Shown: positions 7,339 to 28,775 of the stretch, one piece after another
How positions within the stretch are numbered: the first letter of the stretch is position 1
Layout of the letters: the number at the start of each line of letters is the position of its first letter
Virus record (IMG/VR): IMGVR_UViG_3300028394_000171
Span: 1 to 37,067 of that record
Length of the DNA: 37,067 nt
Source of the DNA: a virus
Reading direction: 5' to 3' (one strand)
Notes under the pieces: generated by a model
Seen by the model: the letters and a program-made list of their open reading frames with translations, nothing else
The model's database searches: none
Told to the model about the DNA's origin: nothing
Program-made: the position numbers and the translations under genes

Positions 7339-7617
7339 ATGAAATATACTTTTGATTTAATCCCAGAGCAAGTAGATGACATCCTTATCGCTAACCTTAA
7401 GGAGATGTATGAGCTATGCATTGAAGCAATCCTTAACCCGAACTTAAGATACCACGAAGACTTTGAAGATCTCTTAAAGAGATACGATGCAATGAACATT
7501 GTGCTTGAGTACTACATGATCTATGGCGATTGGCTAGCTTACACTAGAGAATTTCAAGACAAGGTCATGAAGATAAAGGATGAATTCTATGCGAACAAAG
7601 ATAGCAAAACTGATTGA
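7339..7617 (+). CDS. Hypothetical helical protein, 92 aa
   Basis: TAGGAGATACAT precedes the ATG. The protein is all-helical and acidic. A 'LKEMYELCIEAILNP' helix and a 'RYDAMNIVLEYYMIYGDW' helix are features of a small protein family that recurs in T7-like and related phages without a known role. Its 3' end overlaps the recombinase start by 29 bases. Confidence 0.7.
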   Translation: MKYTFDLIPEQVDDILIANLKEMYELCIEAILNPNLRYHEDFEDLLKRYDAMNIVLEYYMIYGDWLAYTREFQDKVMKIKDEFYANKDSKTD

Positions 7618-8491
7618 TGAGTACTATGAATCACTAGACTTTAGATCTTTAGGTACAGTAACACAGAAGGACTATCGTTACTGTATCAACACCTTGCTTG
7701 CTACATCAGTACGTGGCAAGCTAATCTCCACGATGTACCTTGAATCCTTAGATACCCCTCGTGCTCAGGCTGCATACAACAGATGGGCTGAGAGGGGTGT
7801 TCCCTTTGCTAACCATACTCATGCTGTATCCAGTAAGTTGTACAACTTTGGAATACAGCTAGGCTATACACAGATCAATCCATTCAGCAAGGTATCTAAA
7901 CACGCTCACAGGGCACGTAAGGTGGTGTGGACAAGGGAGCATATCAAGTTGTTCTTAGACACCGCCTATGGACGTTTTAGATGGCGTAGTGTGGGTCTTA
8001 TAGTACAGATGGCATACGAGTGGTGCCAGAGGCTAGGCGATATGGCTAACCTGCAATGGGATAACTACGATGCACAGGCTAGAGTCTTGTACCTAGAACA
8101 GTCTAAGCGCAGGGCTAAGGTTGAGTTACCTACAACAGATGAGTTGCATGAGATGTTAATGCAGCAGAAGGGTGACGTAGACTTTCAGTCTTACATTGCA
8201 CCATACTGTATGGACAGAAGGATCTTAGCTAAGCCTTATGACAAGCATCAACTATCACAGGTAGCTAGGCAGATCATCAAGGCTGCAGGTTTGCCTAACG
8301 AGTTACAGATCATGGACATGAGACGTACTGGTACGATGGAGATGGTAGATGCAGGGGTACCCTTGCCTCAGATCATGAGTATCACTGGGCACAGTTGTCC
8401 TAGCTCAGTAAGACCCTACATAAAAAATACATTGACAAGTGCGAGGAAAGCTGCTACGCTTCGCTTTAACACCGCCAGTGATACAGTATAA
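7589..8491 (+). CDS. int: Tyrosine recombinase / integrase, 300 aa
   Basis: AAGGA eight to nine bases upstream supports the ATG at 7589 over the ATG at 7580. Residues 1-105 are a SAM-like DNA-binding domain; the catalytic domain follows. Catalytic positions seen: Arg148 (CQRLGDMANLQW), a beta-hairpin Lys (Lys173 or Lys177), Arg245 in MDMRRTG, His268 in TGHSC and Tyr277 in RPYIKNT. The usual first His of the HxxR box is Met242. The length fits phage integrases. Such enzymes insert phage DNA at an attachment site, often a tRNA gene, or resolve multimers. It is embedded in the early operon with no visible attP core beside it, so actual lysogeny is unproven. Confidence 0.88.
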   Translation: MRTKIAKLIDEYYESLDFRSLGTVTQKDYRYCINTLLATSVRGKLISTMYLESLDTPRAQAAYNRWAERGVPFANHTHAVSSKLYNFGIQLGYTQINPFSKVSKHAHRARKVVWTREHIKLFLDTAYGRFRWRSVGLIVQMAYEWCQRLGDMANLQWDNYDAQARVLYLEQSKRRAKVELPTTDELHEMLMQQKGDVDFQSYIAPYCMDRRILAKPYDKHQLSQVARQIIKAAGLPNELQIMDMRRTGTMEMVDAGVPLPQIMSITGHSCPSSVRPYIKNTLTSARKAATLRFNTASDTV

Positions 8492-13467: not shown

Positions 13468-14361
13468 ATGTCAGATATAACACTAGCAAACAACGGTAAC
13501 TTCGCAATGATGGCAGATGCGATGGGCATGGGTGCCGACCTAGCCAAGCCAAAGAAGCAGAACAATCTTGCACGTTTAAAGCTTGATCACAAAGGTATCA
13601 TGGGTGAGCAGGTGGTAGGTAATAAGAAGAAGAAGGTTGAAGTTGTAGCAGCAGGTAGCTACATACTTGATCGTACTAACATGGAGCCAGTGTATGGCAC
13701 TGATGTAACGATTCGTTTATTCAATCAGCGTTTTATGTACAAGAAATATATTCAAGGTAATGGCGATGTTAAGTCTAAGTATGTAAAGACTATCATGGCT
13801 AAGGATCTGAATGGTGACTTGCGTGATAACGATGGTGGCTTTAATTGTGGTAAGCCATCAGGTTGGATCGAAGACTACGCAGCATTGCCACAGGAAACTA
13901 AGACACTGCTTAAATCTATCAAGCGTGTACGTGTACTGTTCGGTGAAGTAACCATGAAGGATGCAGTCAACGCTAAGGGCGAGGCTGTAGATGGCACGGT
14001 AGCTGTACCATTTATCTGGGAGATTGATAATCGTGATGCATTCAAAACACTTGGTGCACCTATTGCACAGATGGCAAAGCAGAATCGTATCCTGCCACAG
14101 CACAATATTACGTTGGGTTCAGACGAGCAATCTCTACCTACTGGTGCAGTATATTTCTTGCCTACTGCTGTACTGGATCTATCTAAGACAAACGACTTAA
14201 CAGATGCAGATCAAGCTATGTTTGCAGACTTCAATGCTTGGATTGATAACTACAATGAATACATTGTTAAAGAGTTCAACAAGTTATCTGTATCAGCACC
14301 AGTAAATGCAGAGTTAGCTGATGTAGTTAGTGAGTTTGTAGACGTAGAAGTAGAAGCCTAA
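13468..14361 (+). CDS. Possible single-strand DNA-binding protein, 297 aa
   Basis: TATAAGGAATGAT precedes the ATG. The protein has no recognised motif. Residues 45-100 look beta-rich with basic patches (VGNKKKKVEVVAAGSYILD), and the C-terminus is acidic (VVSEFVDVEVEA), as is usual for phage SSBs that recruit partners through an acidic tail. It sits between PolA and the recombination nucleases, where phage SSB genes are often found. The function is inferred from place and tail only; it could be another replication accessory protein. Confidence 0.5.
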   Translation: MSDITLANNGNFAMMADAMGMGADLAKPKKQNNLARLKLDHKGIMGEQVVGNKKKKVEVVAAGSYILDRTNMEPVYGTDVTIRLFNQRFMYKKYIQGNGDVKSKYVKTIMAKDLNGDLRDNDGGFNCGKPSGWIEDYAALPQETKTLLKSIKRVRVLFGEVTMKDAVNAKGEAVDGTVAVPFIWEIDNRDAFKTLGAPIAQMAKQNRILPQHNITLGSDEQSLPTGAVYFLPTAVLDLSKTNDLTDADQAMFADFNAWIDNYNEYIVKEFNKLSVSAPVNAELADVVSEFVDVEVEA

Positions 14362-15209
14362 TGAATCATCCTGCCGAATTAAAGATACATCAGTATCTCA
14401 GTAAGGTAAGGCACGGAGATAGTACCCTAAGCCCTGAAGTTGTAGAGCAGGTAGTTGAGGATGTTCGTGCTGCCCTTACTCGGCAGTTTGTAGACAAGCG
14501 TGACAATGCATTTAGCTATCGCATGTCTAACGTGGGCAGGGAATACTGCCAGTTATGGTTCGATAAGAATGAACCTGAAGCTGCAGTACCCCACTCTACA
14601 AACTTTATTATCAACATGATGATGGGTGACATAGCAGAAGCAGTGTTTAAAGGGCTTCTAACACAGGCAGGAGTAGCGTATAGCAGTGGGGATAAGGTTA
14701 CCCTCACTGCTGGTGATCACACGATCTACGGCACTCCTGATTTGATTACAGAAGGTGCAGTCGATGACGTTAAGTCTGCTAGCCCTTGGTCCTATACTAA
14801 TAAGTTTGTTGACTTTGAAACCCTCAATGCCAATGATTCATTTGGCTACGTAGGTCAGCTTGCTGGCTATGCTAAGGCAATGGATGTAAAGGCAGGTGGG
14901 TGGTGGGTAATCAACAAGGCTAACGGTGAGTTCAAGTACGTACCTGCTGATGGCATTGATGTAGATGCTGAGGTCAAGAAGATTGCAGCTAAAGGTGATG
15001 AGCTTAAGGCTAATACTTTTAGACGTTGCTTTGAAGCTGAGAAAGAAACCTATCGTAAGAAAGAGACAGGTAACTTAATCTTAGGTAAGGAATGTAGTTG
15101 GTGTTCTTATAGGTACAAGTGCTGGGAAGGTTTAGAAGAACGACCATCACTAGTATCTAAGGCAGCTAACCCACCAATGGTGTCTTACATAAAAATTGTT
15201 GAGGCATAA
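14361..15209 (+). CDS. PD-(D/E)XK exonuclease with Fe-S cluster (Cas4/RecB-like)
   Basis: A 282-aa nuclease. Motifs: GDIAEAVF (89-96), Pro126-Asp127 in GTPDLI, Asp136-x-Lys138 in VDDVKS and the QLAGY motif (166-170) of the RecB/Cas4 family. One Cys near the N-terminus (Cys63) and three near the C-terminus (Cys245, Cys248, Cys254) match the four-cysteine iron-sulfur arrangement of Cas4 and AddB. Phage members act as end-processing 5' or 3' exonucleases in recombination or host DNA breakdown. TAATG junction with the gene upstream. Confidence 0.85.
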   Translation: MNHPAELKIHQYLSKVRHGDSTLSPEVVEQVVEDVRAALTRQFVDKRDNAFSYRMSNVGREYCQLWFDKNEPEAAVPHSTNFIINMMMGDIAEAVFKGLLTQAGVAYSSGDKVTLTAGDHTIYGTPDLITEGAVDDVKSASPWSYTNKFVDFETLNANDSFGYVGQLAGYAKAMDVKAGGWWVINKANGEFKYVPADGIDVDAEVKKIAAKGDELKANTFRRCFEAEKETYRKKETGNLILGKECSWCSYRYKCWEGLEERPSLVSKAANPPMVSYIKIVEA

Positions 15210-20352: not shown

Positions 20353-20610
20353 ATGAATCGCTATAGAATAGAAGAAGAATACCCAGACATAGAGCTTATG
20401 CTACTAGAGCCTAGCTACTTTGATAAGGCTATTGTGGGTGTAGTACAGAAGTGTAATAGTGTACAAGCCATTTGCTATGATGCAGGTAAATGCATTAAGC
20501 TATTAGCTAAGTACGAGAAGATGTCGGAGGATGATGCAGTGGAGTACTTCGAGTACAACACACAGGGTGCATACGTAGGTGAACACACCCCTGTGTTTCT
20601 TTATCGATAG
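20353..20610 (+). CDS. Conserved-looking phage protein, 85 aa
   Basis: The ATG at 20353 follows GAAAGAGATAAC. The C-terminal half, SEDDAVEYFEYNTQGAYVG followed by EHTPVFL, is a block that I recognise from many short phage proteins of unknown function, in which a 'AIVGvv' strand and a 'vlYD..kci' strand come first, as here (AIVGVVQKC and AICYDAGKCIKLL). It is the last plus-strand gene and overlaps the end of the minus-strand late block by ten bases. Confidence 0.75.
   Translation: MNRYRIEEEYPDIELMLLEPSYFDKAIVGVVQKCNSVQAICYDAGKCIKLLAKYEKMSEDDAVEYFEYNTQGAYVGEHTPVFLYR
20560..20600 (+). terminator. Possible plus-strand terminator inside the last early gene
   Basis: ACACAGGG (20560-20567) pairs with CCCTGTGT (20589-20596); two more pairs form beyond a single bulged C. 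The stem is followed by TTTCTTTATC. It lies within the 3' end of the gene, right before the convergent junction, and has a T-rich tail only in the plus direction, so it could stop early transcripts from running antisense into the late genes. Confidence 0.4.
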
Positions 20611-23600
20611 CGTTGAATGATAGCTTCGTACTTGTATACTTGTCCGTAATCCTTAGTAGCATCCATCGATTTACCATCATGCTCTGCAGCATATAGTTCA
20701 TTGATAGCTCTACGGGCAACGGCAGGTAACTTGTTAAAGCGTAGTTGATTAACACGATCACGATCTGATACAGTCATCTTAGCCTGTGCCATTTCTCGTG
20801 AGATACCTAGTGTCTCTTGCATAGTAGTGACAGCAGCTAGTCTCTTCTGATCCAGTGTATAACCTTTGTATCTATCACTGTTAATCAAGTCAGTCATGCG
20901 TTTCTCTACCAAAGGTACTGACTCTTTAATAAAGGCACGATCATATACTTTATCACCTGTGCTACCAAAGATCGCATACGGATCTAAGTTAAGTTTGACA
21001 AACTCTTTTTCAACTAGGGGTTTAGATGGGACAAGTCTCATACCAGTTAGTGTGTTAAAGAATTCACCAGCACGAACAGGTGCCTTGTTAGAGAAGTACG
21101 GTTGGAACTCAGGCAACTCTTCTTTAAGCTCAGGCAACTTAGCCATCACCCTTTGAACAGCAGCTTGCTGGAATTTATCATCTGATGTAATCACATTAGG
21201 ATCTCTAGCTATCTGTCCCTCAGCATCAAACAAATCTAGATACTCAAACACAGGCTTGCCGGGTGTAGTAAATCTACCCATGAAATCACCGAGCAATCTA
21301 CCTAGTGCAACAGATACCTTGTCTGCATCCTTGCCCTCAGAACCTGCAATGTATTGTGGTAACTGGTCTAGCAAATAAGACTGAGTACCAGCTGGCATCT
21401 TCATACCTGCAATAGTAGAAGCAAGTTCTGATAGCTTAGCATCTTCAGGTCTACCTGTCTTTTGCTTAGCAATGAAATCTCCTACAGCTAGGTAAGGACC
21501 AATGGGGAACAATGCTCTCATATCTGTAGTACTACCATCAGCATTCTTGATGTTGTACCATTCCTCATCCTGATGTTCCATACGATATTTGTATGCAGCA
21601 TAGATAGCAGCAGTACCTACAACACCTTTACTGGTCTTCTCTAAGCCTTGGTTTAACAGGGCATATCCACCATCTTCCCCTTTAGCAAGCTTAGCTGCAC
21701 CACTTGCCATATCCACAGCACCTGATGCAGTACCTAGTGGGCTATGTCTATACTGGAATGCAATGGCATTAGACATGAATCTTGGGAATGTTACGACTAA
21801 AGAACCACCGGGTAGCTTCTCAAAGAAACTAACAAAGTCATGTGCCAAGTTCTCTGAGACTGCTTCTAAGCCCTTGTCACTTGCTTTCTGCTGCTTAGGC
21901 ATGTAGGAGAAGGTAGCTTTTAAAGTCTCGTCTGTGGCGTTTTTAAGTATGTCTACGGGGATGTCTTTGTTATTGGCTAACAGATCCATCATGTCTATAC
22001 CTACACGATTAAGCTGTCTCTGTACACTCGATGCAAAGATAGCCCGTCTAAAGAAAGCATCCTGTGCTACGTTAAGTGTGTTCACAGTACGTGCTACCTT
22101 ACTGAGATCACTTGTAGTGCTCTCTTGAAGTGCACTGAATAACTGGTTCTGTAATCGTGGGTTATTCTTAAGGATAAGGTCTACTGTCTCGGCAGTTAAC
22201 CCTGCGTTAGACATATACCCAATGGTAGCAAAAGAATCTTTAACTGTATCTACTAGCCCCTTGGAGATATCCCCTTTCTGATATGTGCCTGTAGCCATGC
22301 CAGTAATAGCTTTACCAGTAGTATAGATAGCACCATCCATTAGGTTTGCTGCAGCATCCATTGTCATGGCACCAGTAGTACCAAGTACGTTACGTATAGT
22401 AGTACCTAAACCAGAAACTACAATAGCTTTAGACTCACGCTCTAAACGATTGATAGCACGTAAAGCATTACCCATAATAGACGGGGCTTCAATGTCCTTA
22501 CCGTACAATTCATTGACTAACTTCTCTGCTTCAGGATCTAGCTGTGCTACTTTCTTCAGAGTACGAGCAAGTGCAGAGTATCCCTGCATCACATTAGCTG
22601 CATCAGCTACAGTGGTACGAGTAGCCTGAGCAAAGTCTTCAGGGGTTAAGTTAGCTTTCTTAAGTGCAGCATCGATAACATCATTGTCAATGTTATCCAT
22701 TGATATGAATACATTCTTAACTGCATCACTTACCTTTTGTCCATTGACAGGTCTAAACTCAGGGGCTAACATCATGACATACTTAGCTACATCAATAGCC
22801 TTGCGGTTAATGTCAGTACGGATCTGTGCTTGAGTTAGGTCTGTAGGTTTAGATATTGCATCAAGAGTTCTACGACCCTCAAAGATATCAAACTCATTTA
22901 ATAAATCTTCTTGTGACTTATCAAAGGATTCATTTAACTTCTTAGTTGCAGGATCTACAGTACCAGCTTTAGATTTCTTACCTGCAAGAATATCTTCTAG
23001 TTCTTTTTTAGTAGTAGTAATCTTACCTTTAATTGCAGTAGCGGCTTCAGCACCACCACCAAATGCACTCAGTGCAGATGCAATACCTAACTGTAGGTAG
23101 TCTAGCTCATCCTTCTGAACACCAGTCTTACGTGCTACATCCTGATCAATCACATTCTGACCAGCACCGATAACTGTTTCAGCGGCAGCTGCAGCACCGA
23201 TAGTCTTTAGCTTAGAGCTAAGTACATTCTTAATTGCTTCACGAGCTACTGCATATCTAGCTCCAGCACCGATGCCAGCACTAAGTATATTAGTAGGTTC
23301 ACTGACTGCAGATAAAACACTTTCTGCAAAAGGTCTAACACCCGGCTGTCCACCTGTTTCATAGAAAGAAGGAACTGCATCAAACAAATTGTGGGCACGA
23401 GATGCTTTAACTACATCCTCTGGCTTAGCATTGTTTAACCAGTTTAATTCTGGGACAGCATTCAAAGAAGTGTTCCATTGAACCTGTCTCATAGATGTCA
23501 TGAAACGCTTAGCATACTCCTCATCAGATTCTTTAGGTAACTGCTTACCCTCTTCACCGAAACGAGCTTCAGCATAGTCACGAATGACTTTAAGATTCTC

Positions 23601-23870
23601 AGGTTGCTTGTACAGGTCCTCAAACTTAATCTTAGATTCTTTACCTGCAGCACGTTCTTCTGGAGTACCTTTGATACGCTGAACTTCTACGTCAGACTGA
23701 TATTTATACTCTGCTGGAGGTTTAGTTATAGGTAAATCAAACTCAGACGTAGGAATAGCTTCCCTAGTATTCTCTGTATCCAAAGGAATAGCAGGTGCAT
23801 TCTCAAACTCTTTAGGTGCACCCTCTATTTTTACTTGTCCTGCTATAGGTAAATCGAATTCACTAGCCAT
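20601..23870 (-). CDS. Large virion/ejection protein, 1089 aa
   Basis: The last gene of the minus-strand late block. AAGGAAGTCAG precedes the ATG. The N-terminus has a SEFDLPI motif twice, then long helical and Ala-rich regions. A hydrophobic glycine-rich stretch (ARYAVAREAIKNVLSSKL followed by an IGAAAAAETVIGAG segment) lies near residues 208-240, and a VVTFPRFMSNAIAFQYRHS block near 700. Proteins of this size at the end of a podovirus structural module are usually internal core proteins ejected into the host. I see no lysozyme or transglycosylase motif. The role is inferred from size, place and composition. Confidence 0.7.
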   Translation of the reverse strand: MASEFDLPIAGQVKIEGAPKEFENAPAIPLDTENTREAIPTSEFDLPITKPPAEYKYQSDVEVQRIKGTPEERAAGKESKIKFEDLYKQPENLKVIRDYAEARFGEEGKQLPKESDEEYAKRFMTSMRQVQWNTSLNAVPELNWLNNAKPEDVVKASRAHNLFDAVPSFYETGGQPGVRPFAESVLSAVSEPTNILSAGIGAGARYAVAREAIKNVLSSKLKTIGAAAAAETVIGAGQNVIDQDVARKTGVQKDELDYLQLGIASALSAFGGGAEAATAIKGKITTTKKELEDILAGKKSKAGTVDPATKKLNESFDKSQEDLLNEFDIFEGRRTLDAISKPTDLTQAQIRTDINRKAIDVAKYVMMLAPEFRPVNGQKVSDAVKNVFISMDNIDNDVIDAALKKANLTPEDFAQATRTTVADAANVMQGYSALARTLKKVAQLDPEAEKLVNELYGKDIEAPSIMGNALRAINRLERESKAIVVSGLGTTIRNVLGTTGAMTMDAAANLMDGAIYTTGKAITGMATGTYQKGDISKGLVDTVKDSFATIGYMSNAGLTAETVDLILKNNPRLQNQLFSALQESTTSDLSKVARTVNTLNVAQDAFFRRAIFASSVQRQLNRVGIDMMDLLANNKDIPVDILKNATDETLKATFSYMPKQQKASDKGLEAVSENLAHDFVSFFEKLPGGSLVVTFPRFMSNAIAFQYRHSPLGTASGAVDMASGAAKLAKGEDGGYALLNQGLEKTSKGVVGTAAIYAAYKYRMEHQDEEWYNIKNADGSTTDMRALFPIGPYLAVGDFIAKQKTGRPEDAKLSELASTIAGMKMPAGTQSYLLDQLPQYIAGSEGKDADKVSVALGRLLGDFMGRFTTPGKPVFEYLDLFDAEGQIARDPNVITSDDKFQQAAVQRVMAKLPELKEELPEFQPYFSNKAPVRAGEFFNTLTGMRLVPSKPLVEKEFVKLNLDPYAIFGSTGDKVYDRAFIKESVPLVEKRMTDLINSDRYKGYTLDQKRLAAVTTMQETLGISREMAQAKMTVSDRDRVNQLRFNKLPAVARRAINELYAAEHDGKSMDATKDYGQVYKYEAIIQRYR

Positions 23871-23882
23871 CTGACTTCCTTA

Positions 23883-25154
23883 TTATTTTTGCCAGCCTGT
23901 ACCATTCCAAGTGCTCTTTTTTCCATTACTATCTAGATAGACTTGACCGGGAATCATTTTTGTAGGATCAATTTTTCCATTTACTATTGCATCTTTAGGA
24001 ATAGCAATAGCTTCTTTAGATACAGCTGCAGGTTTAGGTGGAGGAGCAGGTATTTCATCTTTCTTAGGAATTTCTATAGATCCAGACTTCCAAGACTTTA
24101 CCTTACCATCTTCAATGTCGGCATAAGGTAGTAAAGCATCCATAGAGTTACGACCACCTATGATCTTGTTGTCTTTATCTAAAACACCCATTGCCCTAGC
24201 CTGAGCTTCAATCAGTTTGTTCTTGTGCTCTTGATAGCCTTTAACTGCAGCAGCATCCCCAGAGATAACAACAGGTTCATTAGTCTGAGGATCAATTCGG
24301 ATAACACCCTTAATAACAAATGGCTCTAAGCCCACACGCAAGGATGTATTGAACACAGAGTTAATCTGTGCTGCAGTACGAGGCTTACCGTCTTCGCCTT
24401 TTTCTTTATCAAACATACCTTCAATAACAGCATTAGCACGTAACTTAGCTAAAAGATTCTTGCTAGCAGTAGAGTTAATGTCTTCACCATTTGCAATCCT
24501 GTCACGCAACTGTGCTTGAACATTGGCAACAGTATCTGGGTTTTTAAACTGAGACAGATCAGCAGTACCTTCAACACTGGTACCAGCATACTCAGGCATA
24601 TTACCTCTGAGTGCAGCCTTAGCACGTAGCTCTTTTAGATCTGCACCAGTAGCTGTAGTGAATTCATTTTGAGCTTGAGCATAGGCAGGTGACTCAAATC
24701 CAAATGCACCTCTGACTACTTTCTGTGGTGCTTCTGCAGTAGGTATAGAAACAGAAGTGCTTTCTTCAATGTACTTATCGATAGCCTCTCTCTTTAATTC
24801 AGGAGTATCCTTAGCTAATTTAAATACAGTAGAAAAATCAACTAAGTTTAAATCTTTCTTTTCTTTTAGACTAGACACAACTTCTTTTGCTATTGCTGGT
24901 TTCTGTAGTAGTCCTACAATCTGCGTAGGAGTAAAGCTACCACCCTTACTATTGGTAAATCCAGATAGTACTTCAGCAGTAGCCTTTAACTCATCTCGCT
25001 TAGTCCTAAGCTTTTCATCCTGTTCACCTGCTGTCTTTTGCAATGTCTCAAAGTCACGCAAAGCAGATTGACGAATCTCTTTATTTCGTTTATCAATGGC
25101 GGTAGCTGCACCTTCGGATACTCCAGCTACTAATGCTCCAAAATCAAATCCCAT
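23883..25154 (-). CDS. Virion structural protein, 423 aa
   Basis: GGTGGAATAAT precedes the ATG. The first 80 residues are charged helix (likely coiled coil: KRNKEIRQSALRDFETLQK). The middle is helical, and the last 60 are Pro/Lys-rich with a closing small domain (GQVYLDSNGKKSTWNGTGWQK). It lies between the 1089-aa and the 167-aa proteins with 2-12 base gaps. By position it is an internal or tail-associated virion protein; no family can be named. Confidence 0.65.
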   Translation of the reverse strand: MGFDFGALVAGVSEGAATAIDKRNKEIRQSALRDFETLQKTAGEQDEKLRTKRDELKATAEVLSGFTNSKGGSFTPTQIVGLLQKPAIAKEVVSSLKEKKDLNLVDFSTVFKLAKDTPELKREAIDKYIEESTSVSIPTAEAPQKVVRGAFGFESPAYAQAQNEFTTATGADLKELRAKAALRGNMPEYAGTSVEGTADLSQFKNPDTVANVQAQLRDRIANGEDINSTASKNLLAKLRANAVIEGMFDKEKGEDGKPRTAAQINSVFNTSLRVGLEPFVIKGVIRIDPQTNEPVVISGDAAAVKGYQEHKNKLIEAQARAMGVLDKDNKIIGGRNSMDALLPYADIEDGKVKSWKSGSIEIPKKDEIPAPPPKPAAVSKEAIAIPKDAIVNGKIDPTKMIPGQVYLDSNGKKSTWNGTGWQK

Positions 25155-25155
25155 A

Positions 25156-25659
25156 TTATTCCACCATATCTTTCATCGGTTTAGCCATTAGACCTGTTGG
25201 TTTTTTAGGTTGTTCTTGAACTGGCATTTCTACTTTACTGTTCTTACTTGCTAACATTTCTTGAACAGCTAGTTTAGCCTGACGTTGAGGTACAATATTC
25301 TCTTTAAGAATGTCTGTAATGTTTTCTACATACGGAGTATTATGCTCATCAGCTACAGCCATAATCAATTCTTCAATCACTGGCAGTACAAGAATACCTA
25401 CGTCAATAGTATGTATGCCTTGCATAACACTAGTCTTCTGTAAGATACTAGCAATGTTACGAACTGGTAATCCAGACTCAACTAGATTTAATACTTCTTC
25501 ATGATTCTCAGGAGTACCTAGAATTCTTTTAGTGTAGAACTCCATAGCATCTTCTATGGTAGTTAAGCTTGGAGGATTTTCCCAAGGTCTATTACCCGGC
25601 TCTGTCGTTAAGGACATACCGGGTATTGGTGCATTTACATACGAAGCATCTGCTGGCAT
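25156..25659 (-). CDS. Virion-associated protein, 167 aa
   Basis: The N-terminus contains NAPIPGMSLTTEPGNRPWENPP, of which the PGMSLT...PP part is a pattern I recall from marine podo- and myophage structural proteins of unknown role. A helical middle and a Lys/Pro-rich tail follow (EQPKKPTGLMAKPMKDMVE). The start overlaps the upstream stop (TAATG). It is probably part of the internal virion set with its neighbours. Confidence 0.65.
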   Translation of the reverse strand: MPADASYVNAPIPGMSLTTEPGNRPWENPPSLTTIEDAMEFYTKRILGTPENHEEVLNLVESGLPVRNIASILQKTSVMQGIHTIDVGILVLPVIEELIMAVADEHNTPYVENITDILKENIVPQRQAKLAVQEMLASKNSKVEMPVQEQPKKPTGLMAKPMKDMVE

Positions 25660-25877
25660 TATTCTTTACCTCTTTGCTTTTTAGTTTCCATTCTTCTCTG
25701 TCTTAGAGCGTACACAAACTCACCCACATTCTCGATAGCATCTCTTTGCTTACCTGTTTCTTTTTCTATCATTCCCTTGGGTGCTAATAGTCCTTTAGCC
25801 ATGTCAGCTTTGTCAGAAGTATTTGATTTCTTGCTTACGTACTCTTCAATCTTCTTTTTGTATATATCAAGGCTCAT
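25659..25877 (-). CDS. Hypothetical small basic protein, 72 aa
   Basis: AAAAGGTATTTAAA precedes the ATG. The product is charged and helical, Lys/Arg-rich at both ends (IYKKKIEEYVSKKSN and RQRRMETKKQRGKE). It is coupled to the 167-aa gene by a TAATG junction, so it may be a scaffold or partner for it. Function unknown. Confidence 0.6.
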   Translation of the reverse strand: MSLDIYKKKIEEYVSKKSNTSDKADMAKGLLAPKGMIEKETGKQRDAIENVGEFVYALRQRRMETKKQRGKE

Positions 25878-25908: not shown

Positions 25909-27936
25909 TCATCTGTCATATTCGTCTGTTATTTGATCAGCGGGTAAAGCACCAGAAGGGGTAAAGGTATTAAATAAACCACCAGCCCAGTCAATGATTC
26001 CTTTACCAGCAGTACCAGCAACACTAAAGATATCACCTAGGAGCTTACCACTTGTAGTGCCACTTAAGATAGTAGCAGCAGAAGTGCCAATAGTTTTAGT
26101 AATTTCAGCATCTTTAGCCATAGTAGCTGCTAGGATTTGAGCATTAGCGGCTATCTCAGAAGTTGCAATCTTATTAACACGATCAGCAGCTGACTCAGCA
26201 GACTTCCATGAGTACTCAATCTCATCACGGAACTGTTGCCACATGTTATTGTATTCTACCATAGTTACTTCCATTGCCTTGGTAGCATTGAATTCATTAG
26301 CTCTGTTAGTAGCTGCAGTGTTAGCAGTAGAAATCTCTCTACGCCACTGAGCATTAGACTGATCAATCACTAAACGATTCTGTGCATTAAAGCTATCACG
26401 TTGATTCTGTACTTCAGCATTGAACTGGGATACTGCATTCATCTGCTGTGTATTAAACTGTGACATAGCATTTGTCTGTGTGGAGTTAAACTGTCCTACC
26501 TGTGTAGTCAAGTTAGCAAAGAACTGATCTGTCTGATTCTGACTAGTAGCATTGAACTGACGAGAAGCATTCTCTGCAGCTGCATCTGTTAGGATAGACT
26601 GTACATTAGACTGAGCCTTGAACATCTCGGTCTGTTGCTCATTAGCTAAGTTAGTCATATCCATCTGTAGGAAAGACTGAGCATTAACTACAGCAGCTTG
26701 TTGTCTATTGTTTAAGTTAGCAGTTTCTAAGTTAGCAATCTGTGCTGCACTAGCCATGACTAAAGCTTGCTTGTTACTTAAGTTAGCTAAGTCCATAGAT
26801 TGAGCAAGACGAGCATTCTCTAAAGCAATCTGTTGCTGTGCAGTAAAGTTTACATTAGCAATGTCAGCTACACGAGCAGCATTAGTTACACGAGTCTGAA
26901 ACTCTTGGTCAAAAGACTGACCTAAGAATGCAGCACGTTGTTGTGCACTTAATACAGCTACTTGCTGTCGGTTAGACAGATTCTGTAATCCCATCTGCTG
27001 GTATATTTGAGCATCTGCAGAAGCAATAGGTGTAGCAGCTTCGAGTGTAGCTTGAATGATAGCTTGACCTGCTAAACTAGAAGCACCTAAACCCCTAGCT
27101 GCCATCTGTGCAGTAGCATTACGCAATGAAGCAGCAGCCCAAGGTGGAGGGTTACCTGTTTCAAAGTTAGTCATCAAGTTATTAAGCTGACCTTGAACTG
27201 TCATTTCTGCTGTAACTACCCCCTGTGCAGCTTCATTTTTAGCAAGGTTAGCTTCTACAGTAGCCATGTCTACAGCAGGACCAGTAACTAATTCACCAGC
27301 TTGTAGTGTACGAGTAGGTGCACCAGTTACTTGTGTTGCAGTACCTTGTGCAGCTTCTAATGAACTTACTTGAGTATCTGTAGGAGTAACCTGAGCAGCA
27401 GCAACTTTAGCCTGATCTGATACAGTACCTTGTGCAGCGTTAGTTGCAGCAGTTACAGCTGCTACTGTAGGTGCAGTAGACACAGCTTCCATTGTCTTTG
27501 CAGCAGTTGCTGTGGGTGCAGTAATTGTGGAGGCTGTAGGTGCAGTAGCACCAGTGACTGTGCTTGCCTGTGCAGGGGCTAGTGTAGTGCTAAGTGATTC
27601 ATTTGCAGCTGCAGTCATAAGTGAAGGAGTTACAGTTGAAACAGTAGGCTGGGTAGGTCTGCCTGTTACAGGATCTACTCCTTCTAGATTTGTTACGCCT
27701 GTGGTAGTTGTACCTGCAGCAGTCAGTAAAGCAGGATCTTCTACTACATCCCCACCTGTTGCATACTTGTTTACCATGCCACCACGAGCCATAAACTTAT
27801 CTACGATAGTGCCATACTTCTGTGCATCAGAAGGAGTTGATTTAAGATATTCATCAAACATATTCATAGGACCTTCGTAACCCATCCTACGGGCTACTAC
27901 TTCCTTTTGTTTTGATGTGAATGATTTATCTGCCAT
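25909..27936 (-). CDS. Virion protein with hendecad repeats, 675 aa
   Basis: Residues 1-60 form a small charged domain. Residues about 75-250 are a low-complexity Ala/Thr/Val region. Then comes NPPPWAAASLRNATAQMAARG and a GASSLAGQAI block that I associate with marine podovirus structural proteins. Residues 360-558 are built of 11-residue repeats (QFN-x8), predicting a long right-handed coiled coil. A Gly-rich, weakly hydrophobic end follows (TILSGTTSGKLLGDIFSV). Such a layout suits an ejected internal virion protein or tail-associated rod. It lies directly after the endopeptidase gene. Confidence 0.7.
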   Translation of the reverse strand: MADKSFTSKQKEVVARRMGYEGPMNMFDEYLKSTPSDAQKYGTIVDKFMARGGMVNKYATGGDVVEDPALLTAAGTTTTGVTNLEGVDPVTGRPTQPTVSTVTPSLMTAAANESLSTTLAPAQASTVTGATAPTASTITAPTATAAKTMEAVSTAPTVAAVTAATNAAQGTVSDQAKVAAAQVTPTDTQVSSLEAAQGTATQVTGAPTRTLQAGELVTGPAVDMATVEANLAKNEAAQGVVTAEMTVQGQLNNLMTNFETGNPPPWAAASLRNATAQMAARGLGASSLAGQAIIQATLEAATPIASADAQIYQQMGLQNLSNRQQVAVLSAQQRAAFLGQSFDQEFQTRVTNAARVADIANVNFTAQQQIALENARLAQSMDLANLSNKQALVMASAAQIANLETANLNNRQQAAVVNAQSFLQMDMTNLANEQQTEMFKAQSNVQSILTDAAAENASRQFNATSQNQTDQFFANLTTQVGQFNSTQTNAMSQFNTQQMNAVSQFNAEVQNQRDSFNAQNRLVIDQSNAQWRREISTANTAATNRANEFNATKAMEVTMVEYNNMWQQFRDEIEYSWKSAESAADRVNKIATSEIAANAQILAATMAKDAEITKTIGTSAATILSGTTSGKLLGDIFSVAGTAGKGIIDWAGGLFNTFTPSGALPADQITDEYDR
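26263..26859 (-). repeat. 11-residue (hendecad) repeat region in 675-aa protein
   Basis: The coding region for residues 360-558 reads as successive 11-residue units. From residue 460 nine units are in strict register, each starting with an x-F-N, x-x-N or similar triplet (QFN, QFF, QFN, QFN, QFN, SFN, QSN, TAN, EFN). Upstream, units starting ANL, ANL and TNL alternate at 22-residue spacing from residue 384, with a one-residue slip before 460. The repeats are degenerate in DNA, so they are old. Confidence 0.7.
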
Positions 27937-27948
27937 AATGTGAAAACC

Positions 27949-28377
27949 TTAAGAGAATATTCTAGTACCAGCTTTGTCTATAATTAATGCTTGTTTACGT
28001 GGTTTAGTTTCAATAGTGTTAGGAACGCTTATATGGGTCCATGACGAGAATTCTTCTATGATCTGATCATACCCTATGTCCGATGCAATGACAGCCTCTA
28101 CGACCTGTCTAGGGGTCATGCCGGGGACACGGATGTCAGCAGCACAGCCTATACGATGTTGGCTGGAGTCTTTCGATCCAACAGAATCATTCACAGCCTT
28201 GGACCGAAATGCGCTGTTAACCATGACAGGCTTGCCGCCCAACACTGTTTTAACTTGCTCAAGAAAAGCTGCAAGACGTTTGAGATTTTCTGTTTCAGAT
28301 TCGTTAGGTTCATTGCTAAACTCCCTGTGGTTAGTGTGTGTTAATTCTTCAAGGGTAAAGTGTTCACTTAAATTCAC
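27949..28377 (-). CDS. Endolysin: M15-type peptidoglycan endopeptidase, 142 aa
   Basis: GTG start (GTGA overlap with the holin stop; AGGAG upstream). The zinc site of peptidase M15A is visible: His74 in SQHRIG, Asp81 in CAADIRV and His115 in WTHIS, with the SAFRS strand (55-59) before it. These enzymes cut peptide cross-bridges in the cell wall to lyse the host. There is no signal peptide, so it needs the holin made by the gene just upstream. The length is typical of single-domain phage M15 enzymes. Confidence 0.88.
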   Translation of the reverse strand: MNLSEHFTLEELTHTNHREFSNEPNESETENLKRLAAFLEQVKTVLGGKPVMVNSAFRSKAVNDSVGSKDSSQHRIGCAADIRVPGMTPRQVVEAVIASDIGYDQIIEEFSSWTHISVPNTIETKPRKQALIIDKAGTRIFS

Positions 28378-28775
28378 TTAGCTTTGCTCCTAATTTCTGT
28401 TACCTTCTCTAATGTACGTGATCCGAAATATGCACCAAAAACGAGCATGCCCCAGTTCCCTAGCAAAGTTACGTAACTTTCGTTAGCATTCAATCCAAAG
28501 GCTGACATCATTGCAAAGACAAAGTAACCACCAAGGATTGCTATCAGAGCCATTGGTCTTATGTTTTTAGATAGCCACGAATCAGAAGACATATCCGCTT
28601 TCCATCTGTCTGATACATTGTTCTGCTCATTCATGTCAGCTTGAAGGTCAGCAAGTTTACCCTCTTGAGCTAACTTAGCTAGGTCTAATTGTGCTTGTGC
28701 TTTTTGTGCAGGATCAGGAATTAGTTTATCAACTAACTTCATTCCTACGCCAATGATGTCATCTATTCCAAACAT
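28374..28775 (-). CDS. Holin, GTA-type 3-TM family, 133 aa
   Basis: GTGGAGATAAT precedes the ATG. The sequence follows the 3TM holin pattern: an amphipathic N-terminal part (DDIIGVGMKLVDKLIPDP), a charged helix, the DRWKADMSSDSWLSKNIRP signature, then hydrophobic helices (LIALLGGYFVF-like and LLGNWGMLVFGAYFG) and a charged end. It is translationally coupled to the endopeptidase, making a normal holin-endolysin pair acting on the inner membrane. Confidence 0.85.
   Translation of the reverse strand: MFGIDDIIGVGMKLVDKLIPDPAQKAQAQLDLAKLAQEGKLADLQADMNEQNNVSDRWKADMSSDSWLSKNIRPMALIAILGGYFVFAMMSAFGLNANESYVTLLGNWGMLVFGAYFGSRTLEKVTEIRSKAK

Follow-up and report, generated by a model that had tools for sequence, protein, structure and literature searches.

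A register-locked 11-residue repeat in an unannotated protein family of HMO-2011-type short-tailed phages

Introduction

The closest described system is protein H of phiX174. According to the available portion of PMC7354561, its tube is a decamer of helices 170 Å long in which 18 of 23 inward positions are N, Q or R, and its helical domain consists of three hendecads, a transition and eleven heptads. Among the papers listed on hendecads in bacteriophages, only that on phiX174 H concerned a phage conduit, and there was no match for an 11-residue repeat in the context of a bacteriophage virion. In podophages, ejection genes follow the order small, tunnel and large ejection protein, and T7 (gp14/gp15/gp16) and P22 (gp7/gp20/gp16) show a comparable arrangement, several ejection genes with a large one last (PMC8954989, in the portion available). 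For SU10, the part of PMC9509320 at hand places gp20 to gp24 in the virion and reports them gone in the genome-release intermediate.

HMO-2011-type phages are described as among the most abundant marine groups (PMC9038755, excerpted text). The accessible portions of the literature gave no account of how their DNA passes through the envelope. The present analysis concerns a repeat-carrying protein of IMG/VR virus record IMGVR_UViG_3300028394_000171 (positions 1 to 37,067; this whole stretch of 37,067 nucleotides is called the window). The initial annotation had described in this protein a hendecad repeat, read as a right-handed coiled coil.

Materials and methods

Relatives were collected from phage records with tblastn, which returned 27 records in which two isolates appear twice under two accessions, and from IMG/VR by pattern matching. 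Nine loci in bacterial genomes, all metagenome-assembled records and mostly phage-like contigs, were excluded from the counts.

Rod length was measured between two profile-HMM anchors per relative, P303 ahead of the array and W531 near the array end (numbering of the window protein), on ORFs called by script. The first anchor was located in 217 proteins, the second in 218 and both in 213; where more than one anchor match was present (12/213), the outermost was used. With 28 duplicate segments and the proteins with the first anchor only (4) or the second anchor only (5) left out, 185 distinct segments were retained.

Results

The rod protein and its relatives

The repeat region (26263-26859, minus strand) corresponds to residues 360-558 of the 675-aa product of ORF 25909-27936 (minus strand). 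The parts of this protein and its neighbouring genes are given in Table 1. The window protein had no match in Pfam, PHROGs or PDB. All relatives in the 27 phage records were below 60% identity, and belonged to phages of Roseobacter, Pelagibacter, Puniceispirillum, Rhizobium, Sinorhizobium, Vibrio, Aeromonas and Pseudoalteromonas, plus one metagenomic record; the product name was 'hypothetical protein' in 25/27 and 'huntingtin' in one (ctYwJ313), and one was unannotated. At least 552 IMG/VR pattern matches encode relatives (552/600 among the matches listed). HMO-2011 phage1322_25 shares the family and the gene order (54% identity over 69% of the window protein) and, like most relatives, is annotated merely as a hypothetical protein. 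The other genes of the window (ribonucleotide reductase, family A-type DNA polymerase, helicase, primase and tail fibres) form a set that fits the HMO-2011-type group. The rod protein is a member of a family, so far unannotated, in short-tailed phages of the HMO-2011 type.

The window also encodes a tyrosine-recombinase-type integrase, which in an otherwise HMO-2011-type phage suggests a temperate relative, and a Cas4-domain exonuclease family protein. Two contigs from one metagenome (L022 and L025; IMGVR_UViG_3300010160_000378 and _000451) match residues 1-441 and 380-675 of the rod protein at 100%; the window's phage is probably present in pieces in that metagenome.

Table 1. Positions in the window of the rod protein, its parts, its neighbours and other features named in the text
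Feature	Position	Strand	Basis or remark
Tyrosine-recombinase-type integrase	7580..8491	+	phrog_1, E 6.2e-32
Cas4-domain exonuclease family protein	14361..15209	+	phrog_1990, E 2.2e-33
1089-aa gene, downstream, fifth in conserved order	20601..23870	-	predicted largely helical
423-aa gene, downstream, fourth in conserved order	23883..25154	-	gene order
167-aa gene, downstream	25156..25659	-	family in 14/14 isolate regions; one candidate membrane-helix segment by hydrophobicity
72-aa gene, downstream, second in conserved order	25659..25877	-	gene order
675-aa repeat-carrying protein (P0001)	25909..27936	-	relatives in 27 phage records and IMG/VR contigs
Residues 587-675, C-terminal tail rich in small residues	25912..26178	-	alignment with relatives
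Residues ~290-586, register-locked predicted helical rod	26179..27069	-	whole 11-residue insertions/deletions only among relatives, 185/185 segments
Residues 456-558, rod half of 11-residue FN units	26263..26571	-	one hydrophobic 3-4-4 seam
Residues 303-455, rod half of 22-residue double units (NLxNxQQ..., NAQ...)	26572..27030	-	hydrophobics over two 3-4-4 seams
Residues 246-302, conserved domain preceding rod (PxWA ... PIA)	27031..27201	-	invariant columns in alignment A1
Residues 1-245, A/T/V-rich low-complexity N-terminal region	27202..27936	-	length varies among relatives (sequence, alignment A1)
27-bp tandem repeat, 2.5 copies	27441..27508		in N-terminal part of rod gene
Lysis genes, M15 peptidase endolysin and holin, upstream	27949..28775	-	phrog_894, E 6.3e-35; phrog_3427, E 8.7e-25

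Periodicity of the repeat

Nine consecutive 11-residue units span residues 460-558, in the strict register that had been claimed for them. The proposed x-F-N-like opening triplet was present with FN exact in 6/9 units (residues 461, 483, 494, 505, 516 and 549, which share a single 11-register) and FF, SN and AN in the other three; six or more FN in one 11-register occurred in 0/20,000 shuffles of residues 360-558. Across this same stretch, identity at lag 11 and at lag 22 was 48 pairs each (0/5000 shuffles reached either). Heptads were rejected, as lag-7 identity was 14 (reached by 4593/5000 shuffles) and hydropathy at 2/7 showed nothing. The 22-residue double units described ahead of the nine units were likewise confirmed: in residues 311-455, z was 5.1 at lag 22 and 2.6 at lag 11. 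The first 310 residues had no 11-residue signal (lag 11 z 1.1).

A DNA-level tandem-repeat scan of the window and of relative L194 found no tandem repeats over the rod, and one low-complexity array in each, within the N-terminal part. The A/T/V-rich N-terminal part of the window's rod gene contains a short tandem repeat (Table 1).

Rod length among relatives

All 185 distinct segments differed from the window rod (P303-W531) by a multiple of 11 residues. Fifteen distinct rod lengths were found, from 140 to 668 residues, among them 151 in Sinorhizobium phage phiM6, 228 in HMO-2011 and 316 in HTVC115P; because 94/185 segments share the length of the window protein, the evidential weight of this result is that of the 15 distinct values. 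Related sequences are also non-independent. The fit was retained in 185/185 segments with the first anchor anywhere between residues 290 and 307, and with zero exceptions when the second anchor was moved out to 586, so that the register-locked stretch covers approximately residues 290-586. When the first anchor was shifted to 264, 275 or 285, only 157/185 segments fitted multiples of 11, and the test was therefore able to fail; residues 246-302 carry small indels that are not multiples of 11. The N-terminal lengths of the relatives, used as a control, occupied all residue classes modulo 11. The initial extent of 26263-26859 does contain the repeat, but the register-locked rod reaches further on both sides. 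The 11-residue repeat is a real, ordered and previously unannotated feature, longer than first claimed.

In segments longer than 280 residues, the best internal matches lay at lags that are multiples of 11 (51/51): the long members grew by block duplication. L194 and L197 (668-residue rod) contain super-repeats of 110 residues, equal to ten hendecads, in which identity reaches 46/55 and 48/55 residues (46/55 at lag 110 in L194), a sign of recent block duplication. Four relatives (L001, L030, L034 and L043) are 1021-1243 aa long, with greatly extended N-terminal regions before the rod. As straight helices, rods of 140-668 residues would measure about 21 to 99 nm, and the P303-W531 stretch of the window protein about 34 nm if a single straight helix.

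Hydropathy and seams

The hydropathy Fourier spectrum of residues 360-558 peaked at 2.75 residues (11/4), not at 3.67 (11/3) and not at 7; an 11-related peak was thus obtained, but not the 11/3 one. Among 63 diverse representatives, hydropathy power exceeded 4.6 at 11/3 in 1/63, at 11/4 in 59/63, at 11/5 in 63/63 and at 7/2 in 0/63. The dominant 11/3 hydropathy stripe of a canonical right-handed hendecad coiled coil was therefore seen in a single representative, and a one-stripe coiled coil over the entire rod found no support. Within the rod halves the 11/3 amplitude was 3.5 and 4.9, versus 7-8 for 11/4. The 11/3 term was prominent only in residues 456-560 (reached by 17/1000 shuffles).

On an 11/3 wheel, hydrophobic residues clustered along two 3-4-4 seams, one formed by positions 1-4-8 and the other by 3-6-10; measured on one side, about 164 degrees separate them. 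One face between the seams carried the Q-rich positions 0 and 7 (Q/N 45% in the N part of the rod, 34% in the C part); the opposite face carried position 5, which is N in 67-77%, together with positions 9 and 2. Seam 1-4-8 had 59% large hydrophobics (F/I/L/M/V/W/Y) in the FN half and 31% in the 22-residue half, and seam 3-6-10 had 14% and 48%, respectively. This switch of the main seam from one face to the other between the halves lowers the whole-rod 11/3 value and accounts for part of the deficit. Two contact faces on one helix are suited to a barrel or a sheet. A crude barrel fit peaked at the trimer angle, but was no better than permuted profiles (152/200), so no oligomer was drawn from the hydropathy geometry.

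Composition and predicted structure

Proline was absent from all 45,049 residues of the 185 segments, as was cysteine; glycine numbered 646. The 55 residues that follow each segment (10,173 residues) also lacked proline. Alanine, glutamine and asparagine made up 46% of the rod, and numerous rod positions were near-invariant.

The AlphaFold2 model of a single chain (residues 240-675, 71 relatives) contained helices and zero strands (mean pLDDT 66.7, pTM 0.28), in agreement with the helical structure first proposed. The FN half lay within one modelled helix, residues 451-578 (block means 69-86 over residues 460-569), and a helix in this half is well supported. The 22-residue half was modelled as helix with breaks and at low confidence (block means 43-63 over residues 350-450; 43-55 at approximately 360-450); the helix predicted there rests mainly on composition and register. 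A PDB fold search with the rod model returned no match at E 0.001. Regarding the right-handed coiled coil of about 200 residues in the initial annotation, the non-heptad 11-residue repeat over at least about 200 residues, the predicted helix and the zero proline stood, but the canonical 11/3 stripe did not.

Neighbouring genes

The lysis genes adjoin the rod gene, as had been noted (Table 1). In 13/14 isolate regions the rod relative was followed by one gene of 62-321 aa and then by genes of 164-192, 365-928 and 817-1393 aa; in the 14th (HTVC115P) extra genes intervene in that order. Profile matches among the 14 isolates numbered 14 for the 167-aa family, 4 for the 72-aa, 2 for the 423-aa and 4 for the 1089-aa family. 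Since only the 167-aa family was sequence-matched in 14/14, the remaining order rests on position and size. A gene set ending in a large gene, as in podophage ejection blocks, was thus found in 13/14 regions, by position and size save for the member of about 170 aa. The conserved block after the rod gene resembles, by this analogy, ejection-protein blocks.

A tblastn search with the 167-aa protein found 26 records, all within the 27 that carry the rod protein. Members of this family have a conserved PIPGxSLT-like stretch at the N-terminus, contain a hydrophobic segment and carry a GLMA-like motif close to the C-terminus; the 167-aa window protein was matched by no database family. One of 38 homologues of the 1089-aa neighbour weakly matched phrog_6651, 'internal virion protein' (E 6.8e-6), and the AlphaFold2 model of the 1089-aa protein (mean pLDDT 62.5) had no PDB match at E 0.001. 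One of 32 members of the 423-aa family had a weak tape-measure PHROG match (E 4.7e-4). TAL-effector matches to the 423-aa profile lacked any single stretch that passed and were discounted as artefacts of the repeats.

Peptidase_S74 domains in relatives

A Peptidase_S74 chaperone domain replaced the tail at the C-terminus of 2/14 family members (CRP-3 and CRP-738), and tblastn with an S74 protein also found the CRP-235 and CRP-212 loci. Outside the family, 4/8 S74 records listed alongside the CRP-3 protein were named DNA injection or ejection protein, the others being named hypothetical, chaperone or tail spike; a second list of S74 proteins included tail fibres. Such proteins stood at the head of the ejection blocks in phages 7-11, H6/1 and 199E37-1. 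In phiM5, the corresponding protein, 'tailspike/chaperone', was marked as a particle-proteome protein, alongside three internal virion proteins.

The S74 domain of the CRP-738 homologue matched phrog_4287, which contains SU10, phiEco32 and 7-11 ejection proteins (E 2e-13, S74 part only). The phrog_4287 proteins of SU10, phiEco32 and Salmonella phage 7-11 likewise stand at the head of the ejection block, and 7-11 gp020 is homologous to SU10 gp22 (E 9.7e-22). In contrast to these ejection proteins, the window protein has no S74 domain, and its 11-residue repeat was absent from 7-11 gp020 (z11 -0.3) and SU10 gp22 (z11 0.9). A relationship of the domain preceding the rod to GSSR/S74-type ejection proteins, likely by eye, had no support from hhalign (probabilities at most 0.3%); the S74 link therefore rests on a domain of a few relatives, one that also occurs on spikes and fibres. 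On these comparisons, the tie to ejection proteins is a chain of domain sharing and not homology of the rod.

Comparison with phiX174 H and podophage ejection proteins

Like phiX174 H, the window protein has an amide-rich, predicted helical domain with hendecad repeats; the lag-11 z of phiX174 H in the same test was 3.5. The best register match placed the two glutamine positions of phiX174 H on positions 0 and 7 of the window repeat, but the likeness of the hendecad profiles was not significant (151/2000 permutations as good for the N half and 1195/2000 for the C half). phiX174 H differs in that it has 328 aa, belongs to an ssDNA phage and forms a tube mostly of heptads. Profiles A1-A5 against 23 reference proteins (E 10) and PDB searches gave no homology to phiX174 H or to T7 and P22 ejection proteins. 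Unlike the window protein, T7 gp13-15 and P22 gp7, gp14, gp16 and gp20 had no 11-residue signal.

Discussion

The reading that we tentatively prefer, at somewhat less than even confidence, is that of an ejection or pilot protein whose helices form an envelope-spanning rod or tube, similar to phiX174 H in its working. By this analogy, the rod protein would head a set of ejection (internal virion) proteins in an HMO-2011-type short-tailed phage. Its copies would be kept inside the virion and released on adsorption, and their helices would pack laterally, with the two 3-4-4 seams as contacts, to form a rod or tube conducting DNA across the envelope. The Q/N-rich face, repeat positions 0 and 7, would face the DNA, an arrangement like that of the phiX174 H tube. 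For the function of the rod we infer, as the initial annotation had proposed, a DNA path or a periplasm-spanning rod. The papers searched on HMO-2011 virion proteins and mass spectrometry gave no report that places the rod protein in the virion.

A trimeric tail needle or fibre shaft is less likely, but a serious competitor of the ejection reading. The rod, external to the capsid, would there be a solid right-handed coiled coil of three parallel helices, as free in length as fibres are. The single 3-4-4 hydrophobic seam of the FN half, with F at one core position, is consistent with such a shaft; the 22-residue half, without a single hydrophobic core seam, is not. The barrel fit peaked at the trimer angle, at chance level, and the Peptidase_S74 domain that ends 2/14 members also occurs on tail spikes and fibres. 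The gene of the P22 tail needle, gene 26, directly precedes 14-7-20-16, but P22 gp26 lacked an 11-residue signal and was not matched by the profiles. The window protein was matched by no PHROG tail or fibre family, and the window has separate tail-fibre genes, strongly matched by PHROGs, at other positions. A rod of 668 residues, at about 99 nm as one helix, is longer than any known periplasm. The longest rods are ill-suited to a periplasmic tube and suit fibres better; they speak most strongly for a needle or fibre, or else for rods folded back in those members.

An internal head protein (a core, a DNA-spool organiser or a length ruler), retained within the capsid or close to it and using the long helix as a spacer, appears improbable. 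Length variation by whole units is what a ruler or spacer would be expected to have, and the weak tape-measure match in the neighbouring 423-aa family points the same way. Against these stand the position of the gene, which heads an ejection-like block distant from the capsid genes, and the searches, in which no known core or scaffold protein proved to be related.

Ejected phage proteins act in the envelope, and helical repeats of 11 residues are also what an ejected protein lying along the host membrane would have, as a single 11/3 amphipathic helix with apolipoprotein- or synuclein-like 11-mers. This is very unlikely here, as it requires the strong 11/3 hydropathy seen in only 1/63 representatives, and few charged residues were found on any face of the rod. 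A drifting low-complexity array without defined structure, as the Q/N/A-rich composition of the rod might suggest, can hardly be entertained given the many near-invariant positions and the zero proline with strict register over 185 segments, which indicate selection on structure.

Under the ejection reading, the changes of rod length by whole units suggest a DNA-delivery part of tunable length. A stronger version is doubtful: that the rod represents a new class of DNA conduit, a helical tube with right-handed units of 11 residues and no sequence relationship to phiX174 H, its length quantised, evolving as whole hendecads are gained or lost, and fitted to the host envelope or to the phage's own tail. 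Should the rod prove to be a tube, hendecad helices would serve for the passage of DNA in an independent case beside phiX174 H. If it is a ruler, rod length should track envelope width or tail length, and the quantised rod length over 185 sequences offers a direct test of ejection rods as rulers.
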